Positions 1-24,236 of a DNA stretch of 32,163 bases are shown piece by piece. Positions within the stretch are counted from its first letter, which is position 1, and each line of letters opens with the position of its first letter. Origin of the DNA: Hyphomicrobiales bacterium (GTDB lineage: Bacteria > Pseudomonadota > Alphaproteobacteria > Rhizobiales > Rhodomicrobiaceae); contig JAHQVI010000094.1 of assembly GCA_019634405.1 (NCBI GenBank), positions 1-32,163 on the forward strand, in the 5' to 3' direction. Under the pieces are notes generated by a model. It was not told the DNA's origin, did not search any database, and was given only the letters and a program-made list of their open reading frames with translations. The translations under genes and the position numbers were made by a program.

Positions 1-351
1 CACCACCATCTTATCCAGCCCATAAGACAGGTTGGACATCGCAACCAGCTTAATTGGAACGCCGCCGGCCCGCGCCAGCATAACGGTGTCAACGGTGTTG
101 TTCATGCATTGAAGCTGCCCGGACGAGATTGCAGCATTTTTTTCGGCGATACCCTCGATGACCTGGATATCGAGATCTATATCCTTGGCCAGATTTCTCT
201 CTTTCACGATGTACCAAGCTGCGTAAGGAGAAAAAGAGATGATGGCCACCGATACTTTCTCTACGGCCATGGCTTGGGTACGCCCGCCGGCAAGCATTGC
301 CGCGGCAATTAGAAATGTAAATAGGAAATAAATAATACTGCGTGCGTGCAT
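1..351 (-). CDS. ABC transporter substrate-binding protein, NMT1/SsuA-like (truncated by window start)
   Basis: My translation from the ATG at 351 on the minus strand: MHARSIIYFLFTFLIAAAMLAGGRTQAMAVEKVSVAIISFSPYAAWYIVKERNLAKDIDLDIQVIEGIAEKNAAISSGQLQCMNNTVDTVMLARAGGVPIKLVAMSNLSYGLDKMV. Signal peptide plus NMT1-like pattern, directly downstream of the NitT/TauT-type ATPase and permease. Frame is open to the window edge. Confidence 0.75.
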   Translation of the reverse strand, partial: MHARSIIYFLFTFLIAAAMLAGGRTQAMAVEKVSVAIISFSPYAAWYIVKERNLAKDIDLDIQVIEGIAEKNAAISSGQLQCMNNTVDTVMLARAGGVPIKLVAMSNLSYGLDKMVV

Positions 352-430
352 TTTTAACACTCTCCATTCTGAACAAGATAACTATTGCTATCTACGTTGA
401 TGAGACGCTTCTATTTATAATGCAAAAAGA

Positions 431-1225
431 CTAGATTTGCTTGCGCGATGTAGTAATTTCTTCCCGCATCATTGAGAATAACTGTTTCTCTAATTCATGA
501 TATTCTTTGAAGTCAAATATTGCTTGCTTGTCTTTTATGCGCTTGCCTTTTTTGAAGTTTAAATCAATGTCCGCTTTGATCCGGCCAGGTTGGCGGGTAA
601 AGAACAGAATGCGGTCAGCTAAATAGAGAGCCTCTCCTAAGTCATGTGTGATGACGACTACGGTTCGCGGCTCTGCCTCGATCAGTTCGATCAGAAGTTC
701 CTGCATCTCCCATCTGACCTGGGCGTCGAGAGCGCCGAACGGTTCATCCATCAAGACAATCCGCGGCTTTTGAGCCAGCGTTCGCGCCAGAGCAATCCGC
801 TGTTTCATGCCCCCCGAAAGCCCGCCGGGATACTCGTCGGCGACATGATCAAGGCGAACACGCTCCAGGATTTCCATTGCGCGCGAACGCCGGTCACTCC
901 TGCTCATGCCGAGTATATTCAATCCGTATTCGACGTTTTTCCGCGCGGTCAGCCAGGGGAACGAGGTGTAGGTTTGAAAAACCATGCCTCGCTCGGGACC
1001 AGGGTTCTCGATAGATTTGCCATCGAGCGATAAGGTGCCGCGCGTTGGATGATCCAGCCCCGCGATCATTCGGAGCATCGTTGTCTTGCCGCAGCCGGAC
1101 GGCCCCACAAACGCGGTAATTTGATTTGTGTCCAGATCGAAGGACACGTTGTCGAGGGCCTGAACTGTGCCTTTATTGAAATCTTTGCTTACGGATCTCG
1201 CCTGAATAAGCGGTATCGTGGACAT
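431..1225 (-). CDS. ABC transporter ATP-binding protein, NitT/TauT (SsuB/TauB-like) family
   Basis: Walker A GPSGCGKTT, Q-loop VFQTYTSFPW, signature LSGGMKQR, Walker B IVLMDEPFGALD, H-loop THD. Confidence 0.95.
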   Translation of the reverse strand: MSTIPLIQARSVSKDFNKGTVQALDNVSFDLDTNQITAFVGPSGCGKTTMLRMIAGLDHPTRGTLSLDGKSIENPGPERGMVFQTYTSFPWLTARKNVEYGLNILGMSRSDRRSRAMEILERVRLDHVADEYPGGLSGGMKQRIALARTLAQKPRIVLMDEPFGALDAQVRWEMQELLIELIEAEPRTVVVITHDLGEALYLADRILFFTRQPGRIKADIDLNFKKGKRIKDKQAIFDFKEYHELEKQLFSMMREEITTSRKQI

Positions 1226-1231
1226 TACCGA

Positions 1232-2167
1232 TCAACCTCCCAGCTTCTGCCCTGCCCTCGCCCACGGCAGCAAGAAGCGGGCGGCAATGCGGAACACAAT
1301 GTCGGTAAGAACGCCAAGCATACCGATCGTCAAAATTCCGGCCATGATCATGTCCACCGATAAAGTACGGCCAGCCCGCATCATCATTGCGCCAATGCCA
1401 TCTACGGCCCCGACGATTTCGGCGATAACAAGATAGGTCCAGCCAACCGCGATCATGTTTCGCATCGAGTCGATAATCGCCGGTGCGGACGCCGGTACGA
1501 CGATGCTTGTGACGACGCCCCATCGGGACGCGCCCATCGTGAGCGAGGCCTCGACGAATTCGTTGGGTACGGCTTCGACATTGTCGAGTATCAACGCCGT
1601 CAGAAAAAAAATAACGCCAATGAAGAGCAGCGCGAGTTTGGCCATATCCGTCGGGCCGAACCAGACCAGCAGAAGCGGCATGAATGACGAGGCTGGCAAA
1701 TATCTCGATCCGGAAAGGACAGGGTTCAGAAGCGCCTTGACATTCCCGAAGCATCCCATCAGCACGCCCAGGGGAAAAGCAATCGCAGCAGCTGCGAAAA
1801 AGCTTGTAAAAATCCGGATGCAGCTCGTAATGACGTCATCAAGGAAGTTGCGCTCGCGGAACAGAACCATGAGCGCACCGAAGACATCTTCCACTGAGGG
1901 CAAAAACCTGCGCCCCGCCTCGGGCGTCAGGTAATGACCTGCCTCCCAGACGCCGATAAAGATCGCAGCGCCGAGAATGCCCAGCATTATTACATTATGC
2001 CGCGGCGGTGCGTGGCGCAGTTCGAGAAATTTCCGGCGGGCCGGGCGAAAAAGCGGCGCTTCGCTTGCATCGCCTTTGGTCGCCACGATGAGGGCTCTGT
2101 TGGTATCGTTCTTAACATTCGCACTATCGTCCGCCACGTTCCGCCTTTTCAATGAAATCTGCGCCAA
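1232..2167 (-). CDS. ABC transporter permease, NitT/TauT (SsuC/TauC-like) family
   Basis: Multi-TM protein with the typical EAA-loop-like stretch FVEASLTMGASRWGVVTSIVVPASAPAIIDSMRNMIAVGWTYLVIAEIVGA; start is 6 nt upstream-adjacent to the ATPase gene. Confidence 0.93.
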   Translation of the reverse strand: MAQISLKRRNVADDSANVKNDTNRALIVATKGDASEAPLFRPARRKFLELRHAPPRHNVIMLGILGAAIFIGVWEAGHYLTPEAGRRFLPSVEDVFGALMVLFRERNFLDDVITSCIRIFTSFFAAAAIAFPLGVLMGCFGNVKALLNPVLSGSRYLPASSFMPLLLVWFGPTDMAKLALLFIGVIFFLTALILDNVEAVPNEFVEASLTMGASRWGVVTSIVVPASAPAIIDSMRNMIAVGWTYLVIAEIVGAVDGIGAMMMRAGRTLSVDMIMAGILTIGMLGVLTDIVFRIAARFLLPWARAGQKLGG

Positions 2168-2192
2168 TCATTTCAGTATGCGAGCCAGGCCG

Positions 2193-3218
2193 TTATTGGT
2201 TGCAACATGGGTCGGCCCGTAATCTGCCGTAGGCGCGCATAAGCTGCCCGGCGACGTCACCGGCTTCGGTCATGAACGATTCCACAATGGAGGAACTGCA
2301 GACCCGCCAATCGGAAATGTCGTCTGAGGTCAGTTCCTGAATCTTCATGCCTTTCTCTCCCGCAATCGCGTAGGTATCGGCTTCAAGGAGGGCGTACCAA
2401 CGCCATATGCTCTGCTCTACCTGTTTTGCGGCGCCAAGGATGAGCTGTTGCTGATCCTTGCTAAGGCCCGCCCAGCTTTGTTCGTTGATGACGACAACAA
2501 ACAAAATCTCGGAATGTCGGAGTTTCGTTATGGTATCCCTTACGCGCCAGAGCTCACGCTCTTTGAGGCTGAGAATGCCGGTCATGCTCACAAGCGCGGC
2601 GTTGCTTTCCAGCGCCTTGAATGTCTCCGGTGCGGAAATCTGATGCGCTTTTCCCCCGCAGATCGAAATGAAGTTCGCCATACCGGCATCGATAACCGTG
2701 ACGTCCTGGTCGGCCATGATCGAAGGATTCGTCATGGCGGCTTCATTGGATAGAAGAACGGTTCCGCCATAGGGTTGCCAATACAGGACCCGCGCGCCGG
2801 CCTTATTCAGGATCTCTTGCTCGATGATTGTACGAATAGGAGTTTCTGGCCGTGTCGCGGCCAGAACAAGAGGCTTCAGATCAAACAAGAACGGCTGCTG
2901 AAAGAGACCGGTTGCCGGTATATCCTCCGCATAGTCGCCAAGAGGCACAACAGCAATGTCAATTTCGCCTGAGCTGGCGGCAATACGTCCTTCCGTTTCC
3001 GAATAACGCTGGCCATTGTCGAAAATTTCTACTCTAAGAGATCCAGACGATTTCTTTTCTATTATTTCCTTGAAGTCGACAAGATTCTGGTTGAGTGGAT
3101 TTCTTACGGACTTAGCAAGTGTTGCCTGAAGCGTTGTTGAGGGAATGACTTTCGCCTCATCCGCTGCAGCCGAAAGATGAGTGACAAAAAGAGCAAGTAT
3201 TGTCAGAAGCATCCGCAT
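2193..3218 (-). CDS. TRAP transporter substrate-binding protein, DctP-like
   Basis: Signal peptide MRMLLTILALFVTHLSAAADEA, then DctP-like pattern NQNLVDFKEIIEKKSSGSLRVEIFDNGQRYSETEGRIAASSGEIDIAVVPLGDYAEDIPATGLFQQPFLF. Confidence 0.8.
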   Translation of the reverse strand: MRMLLTILALFVTHLSAAADEAKVIPSTTLQATLAKSVRNPLNQNLVDFKEIIEKKSSGSLRVEIFDNGQRYSETEGRIAASSGEIDIAVVPLGDYAEDIPATGLFQQPFLFDLKPLVLAATRPETPIRTIIEQEILNKAGARVLYWQPYGGTVLLSNEAAMTNPSIMADQDVTVIDAGMANFISICGGKAHQISAPETFKALESNAALVSMTGILSLKERELWRVRDTITKLRHSEILFVVVINEQSWAGLSKDQQQLILGAAKQVEQSIWRWYALLEADTYAIAGEKGMKIQELTSDDISDWRVCSSSIVESFMTEAGDVAGQLMRAYGRLRADPCCNQ

Positions 3219-3405
3219 TATATTTATCCAACCACTATCTTATCAAAGCCGATGAATCGAGGCATAGGCTCGGTTCTGCAAAATGAACGATATGCGAAAA
3301 GTAACTCGATGCATGCATTCCTCCCGGCTACGCCGTCTTGCATACGGTTTTTGCGGAGATGAAAACGTCGTCGGCAATTTCTATAGACAGGCAGCGCTGA
3401 TCCCC

Positions 3406-4593
3406 CTAGCGGCTAACCGCCTCTTCCGTATCCCCTTCAGGCTCCGTCGAATTTTCTTTCGGTGACGATGTTTGCTCCAGGTTGGTCCAAAAACGATCCA
3501 GATGGCCGGAGACAATTTTGTCGTACTGCCCCGTCTCCCGAAGCCTCGCGAATGAGCTATTGATATAGTAGAGAATGGTTCGCGCATGCGGATGGGTTTT
3601 GGCCATAACGGCATGTAGGGTCTCGATATGAACGGGCCGTTCCGCAACATGAATGCGATCAAGAATCCCCATCGACGCAGCAATGGCCCGCCCGGTCAGG
3701 TCCGAGATTACGACAGCGTTGACAGTCCCGTCACTGAGTAGCCGGAAGCACTCCTGAGGCGTCTGAGGCTGCATGAGGACGATCCTGTTATCCGTCAGCC
3801 AACCGCGCCCTTCCTTGTTGAGATGAAAGGTTGACGATCCTCTTGTTTGGCAAAGTGTTTTTCCCAGGACATCTTCGTCGGTTCTGAAGTTTATGGACGA
3901 GTCATTTCTGAGAAATAGCGCCGTGACATCCTCGTAAAGCGGATCGGAGAAAAAGAACTTCTCGCAGCGATAGCGGCTATTGGTGTCAAGCGTCGCAAGG
4001 ACGGAACAATCGGGTTTCGTCCATGGTATCCCGACATCGAATGCGCGGGTGATAAGGAGCGGGTTGAGGTGTGCGGCCCAGTCATTGACCCATGAAATAT
4101 TGTGGCTGAAAGATCCTTGCGACTGATCTTCAATCTGCCCCATCGAGGATGTCAGGAGATCAAGCAGGAGACCGCCATTTTGCAGCGTGCGGTCTGCATA
4201 GGGCGTGTAACCTTCCGCTGTCAGAAACTCGATATGACTGATCATGTTCGACAGCACAAATTTTGCCGGAGCGGAGCTGGACGCTGGCGCGCTTTCGTCA
4301 ATGCCAGGTCCCTGCACAGAGCCGGTGCAAGGAATTCTTATCGCCTGTCCGGGAACAAGCAAGGTCATGTTCGAGCCGAGCCGGTCCTGGTTGGCATAGA
4401 ATATGAGACTCCACTGCGAACGGTCTCCATAGACCTGTTGCGCGATCCCCGCCAGTGTCTCGCCTTCTTGAATGACATAGTCCGTGCCGCAGGTTTGAGA
4501 GGCCGCGGGACCGGAGACAAAATACAATATCGTAAAAGCTGTAAGTAGACGAAGATGCCGACTTAGCGATCGTGCGCTGAAAACCGTCTCCAT
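3406..4593 (-). CDS. LysM-domain / SBP_bac_3-like (transporter substrate-binding) fusion protein
   Basis: ORF extends to 4698 but METVFSARSLSRHLRLLTAFTILYFVSGPAASQ (ATG at 4593) looks like the real start with signal peptide. LysM: YVIQEGETLAGIAQQVYGDRSQWSLIFYANQDRL...LLVPGQAIRIP; then SBP-like domain with SDPLYEDVTALFLR. Confidence 0.83.
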   Translation of the reverse strand: METVFSARSLSRHLRLLTAFTILYFVSGPAASQTCGTDYVIQEGETLAGIAQQVYGDRSQWSLIFYANQDRLGSNMTLLVPGQAIRIPCTGSVQGPGIDESAPASSSAPAKFVLSNMISHIEFLTAEGYTPYADRTLQNGGLLLDLLTSSMGQIEDQSQGSFSHNISWVNDWAAHLNPLLITRAFDVGIPWTKPDCSVLATLDTNSRYRCEKFFFSDPLYEDVTALFLRNDSSINFRTDEDVLGKTLCQTRGSSTFHLNKEGRGWLTDNRIVLMQPQTPQECFRLLSDGTVNAVVISDLTGRAIAASMGILDRIHVAERPVHIETLHAVMAKTHPHARTILYYINSSFARLRETGQYDKIVSGHLDRFWTNLEQTSSPKENSTEPEGDTEEAVSR

Positions 4594-5033
4594 CTGGCTT
4601 ATCTTCAACCGGAAAACAACAAGATCAGTCAGCCGCTTTTCTGTAATTGCACAGTTACGAACGCTCCCTATTTGCCGCCCTATCCACCGCAATCTCATAA
4701 CCGCTACTTTCTAAAGCTTTACTACCAAAGGCGCCATTGTATGCAATAGATCCATGTTTAAAAGAAATATACATCAGCTCTGCAACACATCTATTATATG
4801 CAAAATTATCAAATTATCTCAACGCTATAGATATGTTGAACCAAAACAACTACCTAAAATTGCATTCGAAAGTTTGTTTTATTTATCCCACTTAAAATAT
4901 GGCGAAATAATGTCTAGGAAATTAATAAAAATGCCCTTGAATGCTTGAGTAAAAAAGGCTGAACTAGCCCTAGCGTTTCCGGGATGGAAATAGGACAGGG
5001 AACGCGATCTAGCGCGAGGGGAGACCTAGTCCG

Positions 5034-6806
5034 ATGTGCAAAACCCGGCTTGCCGCATCGCTTTATGCTGTGATTGCGCTCGCCGCCGCGTTTTGCGGAA
5101 GTTCGGCCGGTGCACAGTCGCCAGTTAAGGGCGGGGTTACGATCTTTACCGACGGGTTGGCATATCCGGATGGTGAGATTTCAAAAGGGATTACCGAACT
5201 GGCTGCCGAGCTGGACAAAAACAGCAAGCTCAGACTCTTACCCATCATGGGCAGCGCCGGCGCCGCTAATGTTCGTGATCTGCTGCGTTTTCGCGGTGCG
5301 GACCTTGCCGTCATTAACAATGACGTTTTTGCATCTGAGGAAATCTTCGATCTCTATCCCGAAGCAAGCGAAAAGCTTCGTTACATCACAAAGCTCAAGA
5401 CACAGAAGGTCGTATTGCTGGCCCGCAAGAACATCAATACGTTAGACGAGCTGACCGGGACGAAGATACTCGTTTATGGCCCGGAAACGATCGCCATGCG
5501 CTCGGCTGTGACAATATTCGATCTTTTGGAGATCAACGCTGAAATTACGCATGTCCCGGATGCGAGCACTGACGGTCCTGCCGGGGACGCCGCCGCAATC
5601 TTCTTCTTTCACACCGACGCACGCTGGTTGCCCCGGGATCTTGCCAAGTTTGGCGAATTTGCCCCCATCCCTGTCCCCATGACCGAAGCGCTTTCCGCAT
5701 TTTACCGGAAAGCCGAAATACAGATCGGCGAGCTGGGCGTCTATTCCAACAGCAATACAATCGCAACGATTCAGACCGATACAGTTCTGGCGTCATTTGA
5801 CTGGTCGCCAAGACACGGCCGTTTCGCAGATGTGACGGCCTTTATCGATGACTTTTTTGCAGCCATACCGAAATTCCGGGACCGCGGACGATTGGCCATC
5901 TGGGAAGAGACCGACCCGCATGCGGAGGTGCTTGGCTGGAGCCAGCACGCCTATGCCGCAACAGCAAAAGAAAGCGTAGCGCAGCCTCAAAAACAACCGG
6001 AAGCCTTCGTGGTGACGAACAAGGTCACAGAAAATATTTCGGCTCAGCTTAAGCTATCGATCCTTTCACAGCCGCCGCTGACGAACAGGCAATCGGAGGG
6101 TGGCGGCCTTCTTCCCGAACTTGCAAAAGCCGCGCTGGAGCGATCCTCCTGGCTTGCCATGCGTGGGACCGAGATCCATTGGGATGAAAACAGGGGCGAT
6201 CAGGCAAACAGCGTCGTGGCCCGAAACGCTGCCGATCTTGTATTACCCTGGATGGGTGGAGCGTGCGAAACCACAGACATCTCGGATAACGCCTCAGCTT
6301 CCGCCTGCGAAGATATTCTGGGGTCGGATCCACTCTTTACGGTCCTGGTCGCATTTTTTTCCCGGGCGGATAACGGCTTCGCCCCGAAATCTGAAGACGA
6401 TCTGATCGGGCGCACTATATGCATGCCCGCAGGGCTGGAAATGTCTCTACTCGGTGAACAGTCGCAGAAGCTTGTTCGCGACGGCGATCTCACACTTGCG
6501 CGACCGCCCTCGCTTATCGACTGTCTCAGCCAGGTTGACCGCAACGCGGCCGATGCGCTTTTTGTCAATGAACTGGAAGGCAAGTTTACGATTGCGCAGC
6601 TGGGGCTGTCCGACGCGTACCATATGATCGAAGATATCGTGTCCGTTCAGGAAATTCGTATCGGCATTGCTAAAAATAGGCCAGCAACCGATGAATTGCT
6701 GGCGGCGCTGAATGAGGCTATTGGAAAGCTGAAGACGGAAGAGGAATATTCCCGGATTATTGTGAAGCATCTTACGCCGGCCCCAATGCTTGGCGCCACA
6801 AAATGA
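5034..6806 (+). CDS. TAXI-type solute-binding domain fused to a C-terminal SBP_bac_3-like domain
   Basis: Signal peptide; N-terminal TAXI-like region GSAGAANVRDLLRFRGADLAVINNDVF...LDELTGTKILVYGPETIAMRSA; C-terminal region DLVLPWMGG...SDPLFTVLVAFFSR...DDLIGRTICMPAG like SBP_bac_3. GGGGAGA ribosome-binding site upstream. Confidence 0.82.
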   Translation: MCKTRLAASLYAVIALAAAFCGSSAGAQSPVKGGVTIFTDGLAYPDGEISKGITELAAELDKNSKLRLLPIMGSAGAANVRDLLRFRGADLAVINNDVFASEEIFDLYPEASEKLRYITKLKTQKVVLLARKNINTLDELTGTKILVYGPETIAMRSAVTIFDLLEINAEITHVPDASTDGPAGDAAAIFFFHTDARWLPRDLAKFGEFAPIPVPMTEALSAFYRKAEIQIGELGVYSNSNTIATIQTDTVLASFDWSPRHGRFADVTAFIDDFFAAIPKFRDRGRLAIWEETDPHAEVLGWSQHAYAATAKESVAQPQKQPEAFVVTNKVTENISAQLKLSILSQPPLTNRQSEGGGLLPELAKAALERSSWLAMRGTEIHWDENRGDQANSVVARNAADLVLPWMGGACETTDISDNASASACEDILGSDPLFTVLVAFFSRADNGFAPKSEDDLIGRTICMPAGLEMSLLGEQSQKLVRDGDLTLARPPSLIDCLSQVDRNAADALFVNELEGKFTIAQLGLSDAYHMIEDIVSVQEIRIGIAKNRPATDELLAALNEAIGKLKTEEEYSRIIVKHLTPAPMLGATK

Positions 6807-6819
6807 AAAAGACGCGTCT

Positions 6820-7743
6820 TCAACCCGCCAAAGCTGTATCGAAGCGATCGAGCGCATTTCCTGCTATTTTGCCGATAAGAGACTGTGCCTTCCGCAGCCG
6901 CCTGAGGCGCATTTCCAGCATAAGCCGCCCGACCTGCTCGTGCAGGTCTGCAGCCCCGCTATTTCGCCAGGCGTCATCTTCCTGCACGTGGCCGTCGCCA
7001 TTCAAGGCTTTCAGCGCATCCAATGATGCAAGACAAGCAACATCCTGGAAATCCGGTCGCGCGACCTGCTCAAGACGCGCCTTTACCTTGGCGAGTTGTT
7101 TAGCATTAAGGCGATCCTTATTGGTTAGCGCCAGAAGCCCGTACTCTCGTATCCGCGCCGGAACGTTACGCCATACCAGGGCTTCACTCTCTTTCCACGC
7201 CTGCGTGCTGAACGTACACCAAATGGCCGCATCGATCCGATGGCTGAACATGCTTGCGCTCTCATATCCCAGCAGCGGATCGGACAGGCCCGGAAAATCA
7301 AGAATTTCGCAAGCCCGTAACACCGCGACGGGCAGCTTAACCCGGACATATGATATTTTGTCAGATGTCGGTGTTTTTGACGCGAGCGGCAAAGTTTCTC
7401 CATTATCCATGACGGCTGCAACAGCAGGCTCCAATCCGTGGCAGATCAATGTCGGCACACGTGTATTGGCGATCTGCAATGTCGGCAGGATGTTCACGCC
7501 CAACAAGAGATTCGCCACGGTGGATTTGCCCGAATTCGACTCGCCGATCAGCGCCAATTGGATCGGACGGCGCAACAGCCGCTCCGTCCGGCGTATAGCG
7601 CGAATTGCCGCTGCCAAATCCGGCAGCTCCCTTTGCGCGCCGGTCAGATCCGTGCTTACCCGGCTTAGTTTATACAAAAAATGCTCGCAAACGCCCTGCC
7701 CCCGATTCAGTGATGTGCTAACACTCTCTGAGTGATTTTTCAT
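6820..7743 (-). CDS. Dynamin-like / TRAFAC GTPase (short, 307 aa)
   Basis: G1 GESNSGKS, switch-region T, G3 DFPG (ILDFPGLSDP), G4 TNKD (LALTNKDRL). Confidence 0.82.
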   Translation of the reverse strand: MKNHSESVSTSLNRGQGVCEHFLYKLSRVSTDLTGAQRELPDLAAAIRAIRRTERLLRRPIQLALIGESNSGKSTVANLLLGVNILPTLQIANTRVPTLICHGLEPAVAAVMDNGETLPLASKTPTSDKISYVRVKLPVAVLRACEILDFPGLSDPLLGYESASMFSHRIDAAIWCTFSTQAWKESEALVWRNVPARIREYGLLALTNKDRLNAKQLAKVKARLEQVARPDFQDVACLASLDALKALNGDGHVQEDDAWRNSGAADLHEQVGRLMLEMRLRRLRKAQSLIGKIAGNALDRFDTALAG

Positions 7744-7994
7744 ATTAACCTAAGAATATTTGATATTATAGATAGGTAATCCAACACATTCTTTTAATAT
7801 TATGTCTTATTTTTGTAAGTTTAGAGAAAAATTTTTATTTCATTTTACTATGTTATTCGATATAAATTATGTGATGTATACATATTTCAACAATGTTTCC
7901 TTTATGGAAAACATCACTTGCGAGTTCAAGATGCAATTTCAACGACCGTTGTCAAACCCGTTGAATGTGTTGAGTTTATAGGAGCGTTCTAATT

Positions 7995-10385
7995 ATGAGG
8001 GAAGGAATATCGGAGATCCTCCGTTCGATCTTTTTGGGAAGGAAAAAGACGACAGACACCCAATTACTCCCGGAAATTGAGTTGTCATTTAACGGCGCTT
8101 CCTCAGGTATCTATTCCCTCAGCCAGCACGCTTTGATCTCCAGAAGCGTTATATCCCCGCAACGGACGATTGATATTGACCGAAGCGGCAACCCGCTGCC
8201 CGGTTCAGTCGAGACTGGACGGGACAGGTCATCGGCCTCGAAAAAAATCGCCATTGGCGAAACGCTGAAAAGCGCGCATGAGACGATATCCCTTGCCAGT
8301 CAGATGCTTTTGAAACTCTCTGATAAGGCGACGTCTGAATATGTAGAACGCGTCGCGGCCATGACCGAAGGTCAATTGTGTCAGATCGCATTTATCGGAC
8401 AGATGAACGCGGGCAAAAGCACTCTTATCAACGCGATTATCGGTGCGCCTGATTTTCTGCCGACTGAAATTACCCCCTGGACAACGGTTGTTACGAATAT
8501 CTATTTCGGCGTTCCGGATAAACCGGCGGAGGGCGCGTTCTTTGAATTCTTCGATGAAGCAGAATGGCGCCAGCTTGCCGAAGGCGGGGGACGGGTCAGG
8601 TCCCTGACAGAACGCACAATCCCCAATTTCCCCTGGGAAGCTATTCACAAGCAAGTCAGCGATATGAGGAGCCGGGCAGAAAGCAAGCTCGGCCCGCGTT
8701 ATCAAACGTTACTCGGCAAAAATCATAGTTTTGAGACGGTGATACCCGGCTTGCTTGAAAGATATATCGCCGCCGAATCTCCACTTGGCGATGATGATAC
8801 AGCCACTGCAGGCGAATTTTCTACCATTACCAAGGCCGCTCACATCTACTCCGGTCTCACAAGCTTTCTTTACCCGACCGTTGTTATTGATACACCTGGC
8901 ATCAATGACCCCTATCTCATTCGCGACGAGATCACGCGGCAAAATCTCGAACGGGGGAACATCTTTGTCATCGTCATAACAGCGCGCCAGGCGCTTTCCA
9001 ACGCTGACCTTGATTTACTACGGATTCTTCGTGGCCTCAGAAAAGAAAACATCATTATTTTTATCAATAAGATCGATGAAATCGATGATTTCGAGAACCA
9101 CAAGCCGGCGATCGTTGGACGTACGAAATCATTACTAAGCCGCGAATTTCCGAACCGGGAAATACCGGTCATCGCCGGAAGCGCATATTGGGCCGAGGTC
9201 GCTCTGAGCAATGATGTCGATGAACAACGGGAGTTGATCGAAGCTGACGGCTTCGGCTTGTCTTCGTCCTCGCTTTCTGTCAACGGTCATACCTCATTCT
9301 GGCTCTCTGATCCTGCCGCGGCGCAGGCTGTGATGGCGGAAACCATTCTGGGCCGTTCTGCAATACCGGATCTGGGCGTTGCTATTTCAGACATGCTGAG
9401 CACCGGTCCGGTCGCATCAACCATGCAATATGCCGCCGCCTCCTTGCTGATTCTCTCAAAAAACGGACTGACCCGGACGGAAAAGAATGCGGAGCTTGTG
9501 AAAACTCTCATGACACATAGTGAGAGCGATCCCGCAACTGCCGCGAAAATTGCTGTCGAGCAGCAGGCCAAACTCGATGAGATATCCGCAGTTCAGCAAT
9601 ATATTGATGAAACGATCGGTCAGGCCCAGGCGAATAATGCGTCCATCATTGATGGGACGGTATGCAGCCTTCTCGATAATCTGAACGCACTTCTGCAAGA
9701 GCGGTTGGACGCCTCGCAGGAGCAGCCGGACACTGCCGGTCATACGCCATCAGAAACCATCCGTTTGCCGATCATTTCGAAGCTGCGAAGCCATATCGAA
9801 GAAGATTTCTCAAATCAGTTCCAGAGCGCATTGTCGCGAATAAATGCTGTCGTACATGATGCCGAACGTGAGCTGCAAGACAAGCTGAGCGGCGCGGCTG
9901 ACGCATTGGATTTGCGCATTGAATATCCATTCCTGCCTGCACTTGACTGCACACCGTCACTGGCAGCTCTTAGCGATCCGATCGCAACGGAATTCGGCGG
10001 CGCGGTTTTCGCGTCTTCTTGGACCAAACGCCTTTCTCCCGCCGAACAGGATAAGCTTAAATCCGTCATTAAATCGCAATTCGAGACGACCATTGAAAGA
10101 TTGTCCCAATCGGCGCGGGAAGAGCTGGAAAAAACAACGCATTTCATCATGGACCATTTCCGTTGCCATGTGGCGCACAGTCTGAAGCTTGCGGTTGATC
10201 AAAAACAGGCAATCCTTGCAATTACGCCTTACCTTTCGGACCCGGCCAGCCATGCAACCGATGTGTCAGTGTGCGAAAGGCTTGGAAAAGAACTCAAGAA
10301 AATTGAGCTGGAAGCGGGCGGTTACGAAGGCGTTCTGGCAGAGATTGTCGCGACAAATATTGACGAGGATGGGCAGGCTGAATGA
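7995..10385 (+). CDS. Dynamin family GTPase (large, 796 aa)
   Basis: G1 GQMNAGKS, G3 DTPG (VVIDTPGIND), G4 NKID (IIIFINKIDEIDDF), long helical C-terminal region typical of bacterial dynamin-like proteins. Confidence 0.88.
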   Translation: MREGISEILRSIFLGRKKTTDTQLLPEIELSFNGASSGIYSLSQHALISRSVISPQRTIDIDRSGNPLPGSVETGRDRSSASKKIAIGETLKSAHETISLASQMLLKLSDKATSEYVERVAAMTEGQLCQIAFIGQMNAGKSTLINAIIGAPDFLPTEITPWTTVVTNIYFGVPDKPAEGAFFEFFDEAEWRQLAEGGGRVRSLTERTIPNFPWEAIHKQVSDMRSRAESKLGPRYQTLLGKNHSFETVIPGLLERYIAAESPLGDDDTATAGEFSTITKAAHIYSGLTSFLYPTVVIDTPGINDPYLIRDEITRQNLERGNIFVIVITARQALSNADLDLLRILRGLRKENIIIFINKIDEIDDFENHKPAIVGRTKSLLSREFPNREIPVIAGSAYWAEVALSNDVDEQRELIEADGFGLSSSSLSVNGHTSFWLSDPAAAQAVMAETILGRSAIPDLGVAISDMLSTGPVASTMQYAAASLLILSKNGLTRTEKNAELVKTLMTHSESDPATAAKIAVEQQAKLDEISAVQQYIDETIGQAQANNASIIDGTVCSLLDNLNALLQERLDASQEQPDTAGHTPSETIRLPIISKLRSHIEEDFSNQFQSALSRINAVVHDAERELQDKLSGAADALDLRIEYPFLPALDCTPSLAALSDPIATEFGGAVFASSWTKRLSPAEQDKLKSVIKSQFETTIERLSQSAREELEKTTHFIMDHFRCHVAHSLKLAVDQKQAILAITPYLSDPASHATDVSVCERLGKELKKIELEAGGYEGVLAEIVATNIDEDGQAE

Positions 10386-22594: not shown

Positions 22595-22907
22595 TTTTCA
22601 TCATTTAACGTGAGTATTATTTTTAATTAAATTCAAATTGACGCATGTATGAAGTCAAGGTCTTGTTACCACGCCAATTTTTGCCGGCAAAGATGTGGTG
22701 ATCATCTTGTGAATATTTTGCCGGTCAGGGCGACTTGATATAACGTGTGTACGTCGGAATCGGTAAATTATGGCAATCTCGCCACAGTTGGTAGATATGA
22801 AGCTTGCTGGTCACAATCGCCGAGACGTGATGAACGTTGGAGATTTTGAAAAGACACTGCCGGAACCGAACGGCAGCATTTGGGCGCGCCTCTCAAGGAG
22901 CATGGGC

Positions 22908-24236
22908 ATGAACACGTTGGCTTACACCACTGTTGCCATATTCGCATTTTTGATCGTTTCAACGTCAATTGGCGTGACACAGGCCCGAGCCTGTACGGCT
23001 GAGGATTTCGGCACCGTCGTTGACGACACAGCGCGCGCGCTTCGCGAGCTGAACGTCGACGGTGCGAAACGCTACAATGCCAAGCTGCTGGAATATCAGG
23101 AAAAACACAATCTCAGCCAGGATGAGATTCGCGCCAAAGCGGCCGAGCTGCAGGATGAACGCGTCGAGGAATTCAATCGTGAGATCGAGAAGCTGGTCAA
23201 CCTGATGGACAATCTGAGTCGCACGCCGATCGCTCAGATCGACTGCGCAAAACTCGATCAACTCAAACATGTGCGCGACCGGATGTTGACTGTCATGGGA
23301 CAGAAATCCGGCTACATGCTCGCCAATGCCGATGTCGCCCTGAAGGCGGCTCCACAGAAAGCCGACCAAGTTCAGCGCGAAGCGAAAACGCACCGCCAGC
23401 AACTGGCAGTTGTGCCGCCTCCAACGGAAGCGCCCGTCAGTTCCGAGCCGGAGTACACGCCGTCATACCAACCCCAACCAACGCAAGAACAGCAGGTCAC
23501 GACTTCGGCGTCTCCGCAGCAGGCAACGCCGCAGGAAACAGCGCCCCCCGTCCCCGGAGCCGAGCCGGATTTTCCTGAACGCCGTCCGCAAGCAACACAG
23601 GAAATAGCTGCGAACACGCCTGCCTTCGAGGAAACGACGACCGAAAATTCATCGTATCTCGATGAAGATGTCATGGCGCGCGCCGAGCCGCAAAATCTTC
23701 AGCCGCCGGCGATGCCGGAGGAACTGGATTTACCTGCGCCCGCCACGCAGGATGACAGCTTCACGATCGATGAAATCCGCAGCGCCGGGCGCGGCGTGTT
23801 CGGCACGATCACGGCGGAATTTGCTGGCGCGATCAACTACGCCTTCCAGCAATATGGGCGTCCCAACGCCTATATCACCGGGAGCGAGGGCGGCGCAGCC
23901 TTCCTTGCGGGCTTACGCTATGGCAAGGGCGATCTGCACCTGAAGAACGGCCAGATTTCTGAAATATACTGGCAGGGGCCCTCGCTTGGCACCGATGTCG
24001 GCGCGGAAGGGTCAAGCACGCTGTTTCTGGTCTATAATCTCAAGGAACATGACGACATTTATGGCCGCTTCACCGGTATTGGCGGTTCCGCCTATGTCGC
24101 GGGCGGTTTCGGGCTGAACGTGCTGGGCAAGCGCGGAATGGTCATGGTTCCCATCCGGACTGGGATCGGCCTGCGTCTCGGCGCAAGCCTTGCTTATCTG
24201 AAATTCACAGAGCGCCAGACCTGGAACCCGTTCTAA
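22908..24236 (+). CDS. DUF1134 (EipA-like) envelope protein with extra N-terminal coiled-coil region and Pro/Gln/Glu-rich linker
   Basis: C-terminal DUF1134: FTIDEIRSAGRGVFGTITAEFAGAINYAFQQYGRPNAYITGSEGGAAFLAGLRYGKGDLHLK...QIYWQGPSLGTDVGAEGSSTLFLVYNL...GFGLNVLGKRGMVMVPIRTGIGLRLGASLAYLKFTERQTWNPF. Start at 22908 chosen for AAGGAG at 22895-22900 and signal peptide MNTLAYTTVAIFAFLIVSTSIGVTQARA; supplied ORF starts at 22770. Confidence 0.85.
   Translation: MNTLAYTTVAIFAFLIVSTSIGVTQARACTAEDFGTVVDDTARALRELNVDGAKRYNAKLLEYQEKHNLSQDEIRAKAAELQDERVEEFNREIEKLVNLMDNLSRTPIAQIDCAKLDQLKHVRDRMLTVMGQKSGYMLANADVALKAAPQKADQVQREAKTHRQQLAVVPPPTEAPVSSEPEYTPSYQPQPTQEQQVTTSASPQQATPQETAPPVPGAEPDFPERRPQATQEIAANTPAFEETTTENSSYLDEDVMARAEPQNLQPPAMPEELDLPAPATQDDSFTIDEIRSAGRGVFGTITAEFAGAINYAFQQYGRPNAYITGSEGGAAFLAGLRYGKGDLHLKNGQISEIYWQGPSLGTDVGAEGSSTLFLVYNLKEHDDIYGRFTGIGGSAYVAGGFGLNVLGKRGMVMVPIRTGIGLRLGASLAYLKFTERQTWNPF

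Follow-up and report, generated by a model that had tools for sequence, protein, structure and literature searches.

Bacterial dynamins are usually encoded as operon pairs (PMC6104087). In the Hyphomicrobiales bacterium (family Rhodomicrobiaceae) represented by assembly GCA_019634405.1, a pair of dynamin-family GTPases is instead encoded divergently, next to secreted substrate-binding proteins (SBPs), within positions 1-10385 of contig JAHQVI010000094.1. This contig, designated C82, belongs to a genome (G000) of 2.79 Mb that is 82% complete, and was analyzed as a single stretch of 32,163 nt, hereafter the window, to which all coordinates refer. Linkage of such SBPs to dynamins across genera, families, and two orders is well supported, and the locus sets a familiar type of protein pair in new surroundings rather than being a categorically new system.

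Among the closest described systems, the Campylobacter jejuni Cj-DLP1/DLP2 pair (PMC6104087) shares with this locus two adjacent dynamin-family genes of unequal size, the larger of which encodes a G domain with a helical stalk; the best sequence match of the window's large dynamin in the PDB is 5owv (1.4e-10). It differs in that the window pair is divergent, the small partner is stalkless, and secreted ligand-binding proteins adjoin. The dynamins of Escherichia coli LeoABC (PMC4159319) are likewise encoded together and their models (LeoA/LeoBC) match weakly, but LeoABC includes none of the LysM-SBP, TAXI-SBP, Sel1/TPR adaptor, or kinase/FHA/PP2C components considered below, and the similarity is confined to the G domain. 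The type-3 SBP fold serves for sensing in the VFT2 domain of BvgS, in the 3h7m sensor domain, and in the cores of bacterial ionotropic glutamate receptors, all among the PDB fold neighbors of the LysM-SBP; the latter, however, is a separate secreted protein with a LysM domain, unfused to an output domain. The Bordetella TAXI-GltS protein BP0403 (PMC12344293) is a long multidomain TAXI SBP encoded without permease genes of the tripartite ATP-independent periplasmic (TRAP) type, whereas the window has no GltS nearby, its TAXI domain occupies the N-terminus and is followed by a fused second SBP domain, and its neighbors are dynamins. Finally, ATP-binding cassette (ABC) importers of the SsuABC/TauABC type also combine an NMT1-type SBP, a permease, and an ATPase in one operon, but the window genes score below every named cut-off and the operon has an additional DctP SBP. 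In the open-licence literature on dynamins, nothing was found on this SBP-dynamin arrangement.

Analysis of open reading frames (ORFs) and Pfam domains shows that the 10.4 kb hold genes for four secreted SBPs, for an ATPase and a permease of the ABC type, and for two dynamin-like GTPases, as follows:

1-351, minus strand: NMT1-type SBP, 5' part only, the gene being cut by the contig end (4e-53 to L039:2448-3629)
431-1225, minus strand: ABC ATPase (Pfam, 1.4e-34; closest named models SaoA/TauB, below cut-off)
1232-2167, minus strand: ABC permease (Pfam, 2.6e-21; closest named models TauC/SaoP, below cut-off)
2193-3218, minus strand: DctP-family SBP (Pfam, 4.8e-28)
3406-4593, minus strand: secreted LysM + SBP_bac_3 protein of 395 aa, the LysM-SBP (LysM, 3.1e-4; SBP_bac_3, 2.3e-3)
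5034-6806, plus strand: TAXI (NMT1_3) + SBP_bac_3 double binding protein with a putative signal peptide, the TAXI-SBP (NMT1_3, 4.3e-3; SBP_bac_3, 0.034)
6820-7743, minus strand: small dynamin-family GTPase of 307 aa (Dynamin_N, 5.7e-9)
7995-10385, plus strand: large bacterial dynamin-like GTPase of 796 aa (Dynamin_N, 7.2e-16)

An earlier sequence-only reading of this DNA had listed the same features, and ORFs, Pfam, and homologs bear out all of them at the places that it gave; its view of the layout needed three corrections, concerning the operon structure of the last three genes, the start of the LysM-SBP, and the room for a stalk in the small GTPase. The truncated first gene has a full-length Rhodomicrobium homolog (L039:2448-3629) with an NMT1 match of E 4.9e-14. 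The first five genes share the minus strand, with gaps of 6-79 bp inside the ABC operon. The LysM-SBP and TAXI-SBP genes diverge across 440 bp and the two GTPase genes across 251 bp, whereas the TAXI-SBP and small GTPase genes converge, with 13 bp between them. Because the last three genes lie on the plus, minus, and plus strands, respectively, they cannot form one operon. A single operon for the entire locus was considered and rejected, given that strands alternate and the gene order differs between genomes.

Recurrence of the association in two orders

The neighbor analysis that the sequence-only reading had called for, with rare or absent neighborship in other genomes as its stated refutation, yielded the opposite result: the SBP fusions and GTPases recur as neighbors in other genera, other families, and another order. 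Among 298 genomes sampled from the window's order, LysM-SBP (full-length E <1e-70) was detected in 6 and the large dynamin (E <1e-50) in 9, with 4 genomes containing both (hypergeometric p = 5.7e-6, or 1.3e-4 when the window's genome is left out), and in three of these four, the two genes are less than 5 kb apart. When the dynamin was searched in 44 genomes picked by the SBP alone, and the surroundings of the matches were fetched, it was found within 10 kb in 7/44, compared with an expectation of ~1%. These p-values are indicative only, because loci L067 and L130 are near-copies; at least 5 of 44 gives 8e-5. Chance linkage is disfavored by these tests. In a class-wide sample of 190 genomes, the window's own genome was the sole match, and the family is therefore narrow. 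Used as the sole query, the large dynamin gave no match in named genomes; the LysM-SBP alignment worked in its place.

The best-conserved syntenic relative is found in Rhodomicrobium sp. R_RK_3 (G002; L039 = L063), which belongs to a genus different from that of the window and retains the complete set of eight; there, the genes for TAXI-SBP, the small GTPase, and the large dynamin are inverted en bloc, and one polysaccharide deacetylase gene is inserted. Identity to the window proteins is ~70% for DctP, 54% for LysM-SBP, 41-45% for the GTPases, and 39% for TAXI-SBP. In three Hyphomicrobiaceae loci (L066, L067, and L130) and in L047 (G045), from another family, LysM-SBP lies within ~6 kb of the large dynamin; TAXI-SBP and a recognized small GTPase are each present in three of these four loci, and the order and strand of the core genes vary. 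In all four, the gene for a Sel1/TPR-like membrane protein separates LysM-SBP from the dynamin or adjoins them. In Rhodomicrobiaceae and L066, this adaptor candidate has a 'KLDEVRxxLxxLQ' helix at its N-terminus, spans the membrane, and ends in a Sel1-like part, and elsewhere a more divergent version occurs. The homolog in the window's genome (L174:688-1350) is located near what reads as a glyceraldehyde-3-phosphate dehydrogenase gene.

The second order is represented by Rhodobacteraceae. On Ruegeria and Leisingera plasmids and in genomes L135, L138, and L139, LysM-SBP is encoded together with a Ser/Thr kinase, an FHA protein, a PP2C phosphatase, and two dynamins. The kinase-FHA-PP2C-dynA-dynB genes form a stable cluster, of which no description was found in the literature, at 22 Rhodobacteraceae loci:

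L060, L061, L062, L135, L138, L139, L143-L150, L152, L154-L160: Rhodobacteraceae kinase/FHA/PP2C/dynamin-pair cluster

LysM-SBP is present in 9 of the 22 (L060-L062, L135, L138, L139, and L143-L145), in 2-3 copies at most of these loci, with a single copy at L139. The cluster kinases are membrane-spanning and have a periplasmic portion, and that of L138 gives a PDZ match; in most clusters, there is also a further P-loop protein that matches Dynamin_N weakly. Kinase/FHA/PP2C modules occur in Hyphomicrobiales genomes as well, but away from dynamins. Because the Hyphomicrobiales relatives of the kinase are not found beside dynamins, the module was rejected as a part of the window's locus.

Tandem LysM-SBP genes without dynamins within 10 kb constitute a conserved small operon of their own (L059:9847-12987 and ~60 Rhodobacteraceae loci among L072-L134), which in 28 loci is directly preceded by the gene of P_hyp, a putative membrane protein with a single span. 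One locus of the Rhodobacteraceae type, L111, comes from an assembly titled Nocardioides marinus, which is probably mislabelled or contaminated.

Phylogenetic trees point to repeated or ancient association. In the dynamin tree, built with a quick method and including some long branches, the SBP-linked large dynamins fall into at least five lineages with seven label changes: the window and Rhodomicrobium; L047; L066/L067/L130; the deep branch of L061/L062; and others among Rhodobacteraceae. The LysM-SBP tree comprises two main clades, with dynamin-linked members in both and, again, seven changes. Such a reshuffled association is as expected from selection for shared function, and not from the co-transfer of one fixed island.

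Binding proteins and GTPases of the core

The N-termini of the LysM-SBP, TAXI-SBP, DctP, and NMT1 proteins all read as putative signal peptides. The longest ORF of LysM-SBP starts at 4698, but the start at 4593 is likelier because only from there does the N-terminus correspond to a signal peptide. The AlphaFold model of LysM-SBP is a confident clamshell (pLDDT 86.8), and a Foldseek search against the PDB identified as its neighbors arginine, glutamine, and glutamate SBPs along with SBP-type sensor domains, including those of a histidine kinase (3h7m) and BvgS. In the HMMER alignment, an Arg of LysM-SBP is aligned with the conserved Arg of Thermotoga maritima ArgBP, which we take to be the alpha-carboxylate clamp of amino-acid SBPs. 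LysM-SBP thus has both the fold and the alpha-carboxylate-binding Arg of type-3 amino-acid SBPs. The clamp Arg is kept in 160/170 LysM-SBP proteins, whereas the amino-group-binding position is mostly Asn (127/170), with Asp in 21/170; therefore, LysM-SBP has probably retained the ability to bind a carboxylate ligand, although perhaps no standard amino acid. The LysM domain implies tethering to peptidoglycan, and the protein would accordingly be an exported, peptidoglycan-anchored ligand-binding protein.

The Pfam matches of TAXI-SBP are weak, but homologs and the NCBIfam model TRAP_TAXI (6e-5) back the assignment, and in Hyphomicrobiales the protein counts among the conserved core members. In all six TAXI-SBP fusions examined, the clamp Arg is gone from the C-terminal SBP_bac_3 domain, which thus probably does not bind a ligand in the same manner. 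A separate TAXI protein is encoded elsewhere in the genome (L175:4956-7073; G000:C126), directly followed by a gene for a secreted Sel1-like protein. Despite the presence of DctP and TAXI domains, the main ORFs of the window include neither DctQ/DctM nor a fused TRAP permease.

Both GTPases contain the dynamin-family G motifs, namely, GQMNAGKS, DTPG, and NKID in the large protein and GESNSGKS (G1), DFPG (G3), and TNKD (G4) in the small one. The AlphaFold model of the large GTPase, with a mean pLDDT of only 67, consists of the G domain and a long helical stalk (helices 472-787), and its fold matches in the PDB include IniA, SynDLP, BDLP, and Cj-DLP1/2. The small GTPase is a dynamin-type G domain, its 307 aa leaving no room for a neck/trunk stalk. 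Dynamin-family genes are paired in the window, in all three pairs of its genome, and at most of the loci fetched. The two further pairs of this genome, L002 (G000:C156) and L003 (G000:C209), are tandem rather than divergent, and no SBP neighbor was seen beside them. Dynamin pairs without an SBP had no common extra neighbor in the loci examined.

Competing explanations of the neighborhood

The genes, their predicted folds, the conserved residues, and the recurrent, reshuffled co-localization across two orders are directly established. Of the readings considered, the best is that the SBP fusions are sensors: LysM-SBP, TAXI-SBP, the small GTPase, and the large dynamin would form a core in which the dynamin pair is coupled to periplasmic ligand sensing, a coupling that we advance with nearly as much confidence as doubt. 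In this core, TAXI-SBP may serve as a second, partly degenerate receptor, an assignment of similarly tentative standing. A sensor rather than importer role of the SBP fusions, a possibility that the sequence-only reading had raised for the SBP domains, fits the lack of a permease conserved with the core, the LysM tethering, and the kinase/FHA/PP2C neighbors in Rhodobacteraceae.

How such sensing might reach the dynamins is more conjectural. It is conceivable, if somewhat doubtful, that the locus belongs to a new transmembrane signaling system, in which tethered SBPs gate the dynamin pair via a Sel1/TPR adaptor in Hyphomicrobiales or a Ser/Thr kinase-FHA-PP2C relay in Rhodobacteraceae. We infer the ligand class, the tethering, the signaling path, and the membrane outcome as follows. 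LysM-SBP would be exported and held on peptidoglycan by its LysM domain, where the clamshell would bind a small carboxylate-bearing ligand. The ligand state would cross the inner membrane through a single-pass adaptor, that is, the Sel1/TPR-like membrane protein in Hyphomicrobiales and, in Rhodobacteraceae, the membrane-spanning Ser/Thr kinase with its FHA and PP2C partners. The signal would then recruit or release the cytoplasmic dynamin pair, which may tether, fuse, or patch the inner membrane, with envelope damage as the most plausible trigger. The arrangement suggests, but falls short of proving, that the alphaproteobacteria with such loci steer membrane remodeling by an outside signal. 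If true, this would amount to ligand-controlled membrane remodeling in bacteria. In a family whose triggers and roles are largely open, the recurrent link to secreted, wall-anchored SBPs and, in Rhodobacteraceae, to the kinase/FHA/PP2C module supplies a dynamin pair with a definite input that can be put to the test, with named genes available in organisms that can be cultured, Ruegeria and Leisingera among them.

Several observations weigh against the coupling of sensing to dynamins. Co-localization alone is no proof of joint function, and the window dynamins and SBPs alternate in strand. No kinase is encoded near the window locus, the related kinase of this genome being on another contig, and the Sel1/TPR homolog is also on a different contig (G000:C68), unlinked to the window. 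In genome G004, LysM-SBP, TAXI-SBP, and a divergent dynamin pair are found at separate places. Among Rhodobacteraceae, 13/22 kinase-dynamin clusters lack LysM-SBP, and the tandem LysM-SBP genes in ~60 loci have no dynamin within 10 kb. As to ligand identity, the prevalence of Asn at the amino-group position is a further difficulty.

The alternative that survives best is a shared neighborhood without shared function, whereby a multi-SBP ABC importer happens to lie beside an independent dynamin pair and the linkage elsewhere results from co-transfer in accessory regions or plasmids. The plasmid-borne copies of Ruegeria and Leisingera, the many SBP and dynamin copies found apart, and the resemblance of the ABC/NMT1/DctP part, its additional SBP aside, to an ordinary importer all agree with this explanation. 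Nevertheless, one LysM-SBP family meets dynamins of at least five lineages in two orders, with varying gene order, both on plasmids and on chromosomes, and at a rate well beyond expectation, whereas co-transfer of a single fixed island would preserve both the order and sister dynamins. We regard this alternative as rather unlikely.

Less probable still is a nutrient importer in which several SBPs feed one ABC permease and the dynamins merely adapt the membrane. A complete set of SBP, permease, and ATPase genes, as expected of an ABC importer, is indeed present at 1-2167, the ATPase/permease pair adjoining the NMT1-type SBP, and the set is conserved in Rhodomicrobium R_RK_3; moreover, SBPs without their usual permease can serve another transporter, as in TAXI-GltS (PMC12344293). 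However, these importer genes belong to the peripheral operon only, which adjoins the core in just two Rhodomicrobiaceae genomes, those of the window and R_RK_3. ABC/NMT1/DctP genes are absent from the dynamin-linked loci of Hyphomicrobiaceae and Rhodobacteraceae, and indeed ABC genes are missing at every LysM-SBP/dynamin linkage outside Rhodomicrobiaceae, with no relative of the window's ABC permease beside LysM-SBP or TAXI-SBP in the dynamin-linked Hyphomicrobiaceae or Rhodobacteraceae loci. Likewise, of 199 genomes of the order, the other Rhodomicrobiaceae genome is the sole one with an orthologous DctP (70% identity; next best, 36%). Furthermore, DctP, TAXI, and SBP_bac_3 domains normally belong to different transporter types, and the SBP_bac_3 domain of the TAXI fusion is without the ligand Arg. 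Being common only to these two genomes, the operon is best seen as a peripheral, family-specific neighbor; it was rejected as a part of the core, and the multi-SBP importer part is considered incidental. The idea of one apparatus made up of the four SBPs plus the ABC pair is thus not supported.

An anti-phage system, with SBP ectodomains sensing infection at the envelope and dynamins sealing or sacrificing the membrane, is very improbable: PADLOC models include bacterial dynamins and Ser/Thr kinases, and the large dynamin matches those of LeoA/LeoBC (5.8e-16 and 1.1e-11), but these generic dynamin and kinase matches are at the family level only, neither PADLOC nor the flanks revealed anything phage-specific, and housekeeping genes rather than a defense island surround the locus. 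The phage-defense-like role envisaged in the sequence-only reading thus finds no specific backing.

Flanking genes of the window

Searches of the window for Rfam families and tRNAs gave no match. The housekeeping genes in the flanks include those for CTP synthase, GTP cyclohydrolase II, and MdoG. At 22770-24236, the window encodes an envelope integrity protein of the EipA type that is considerably extended at its N-terminus, the EipA domain covering only residues 330-488.

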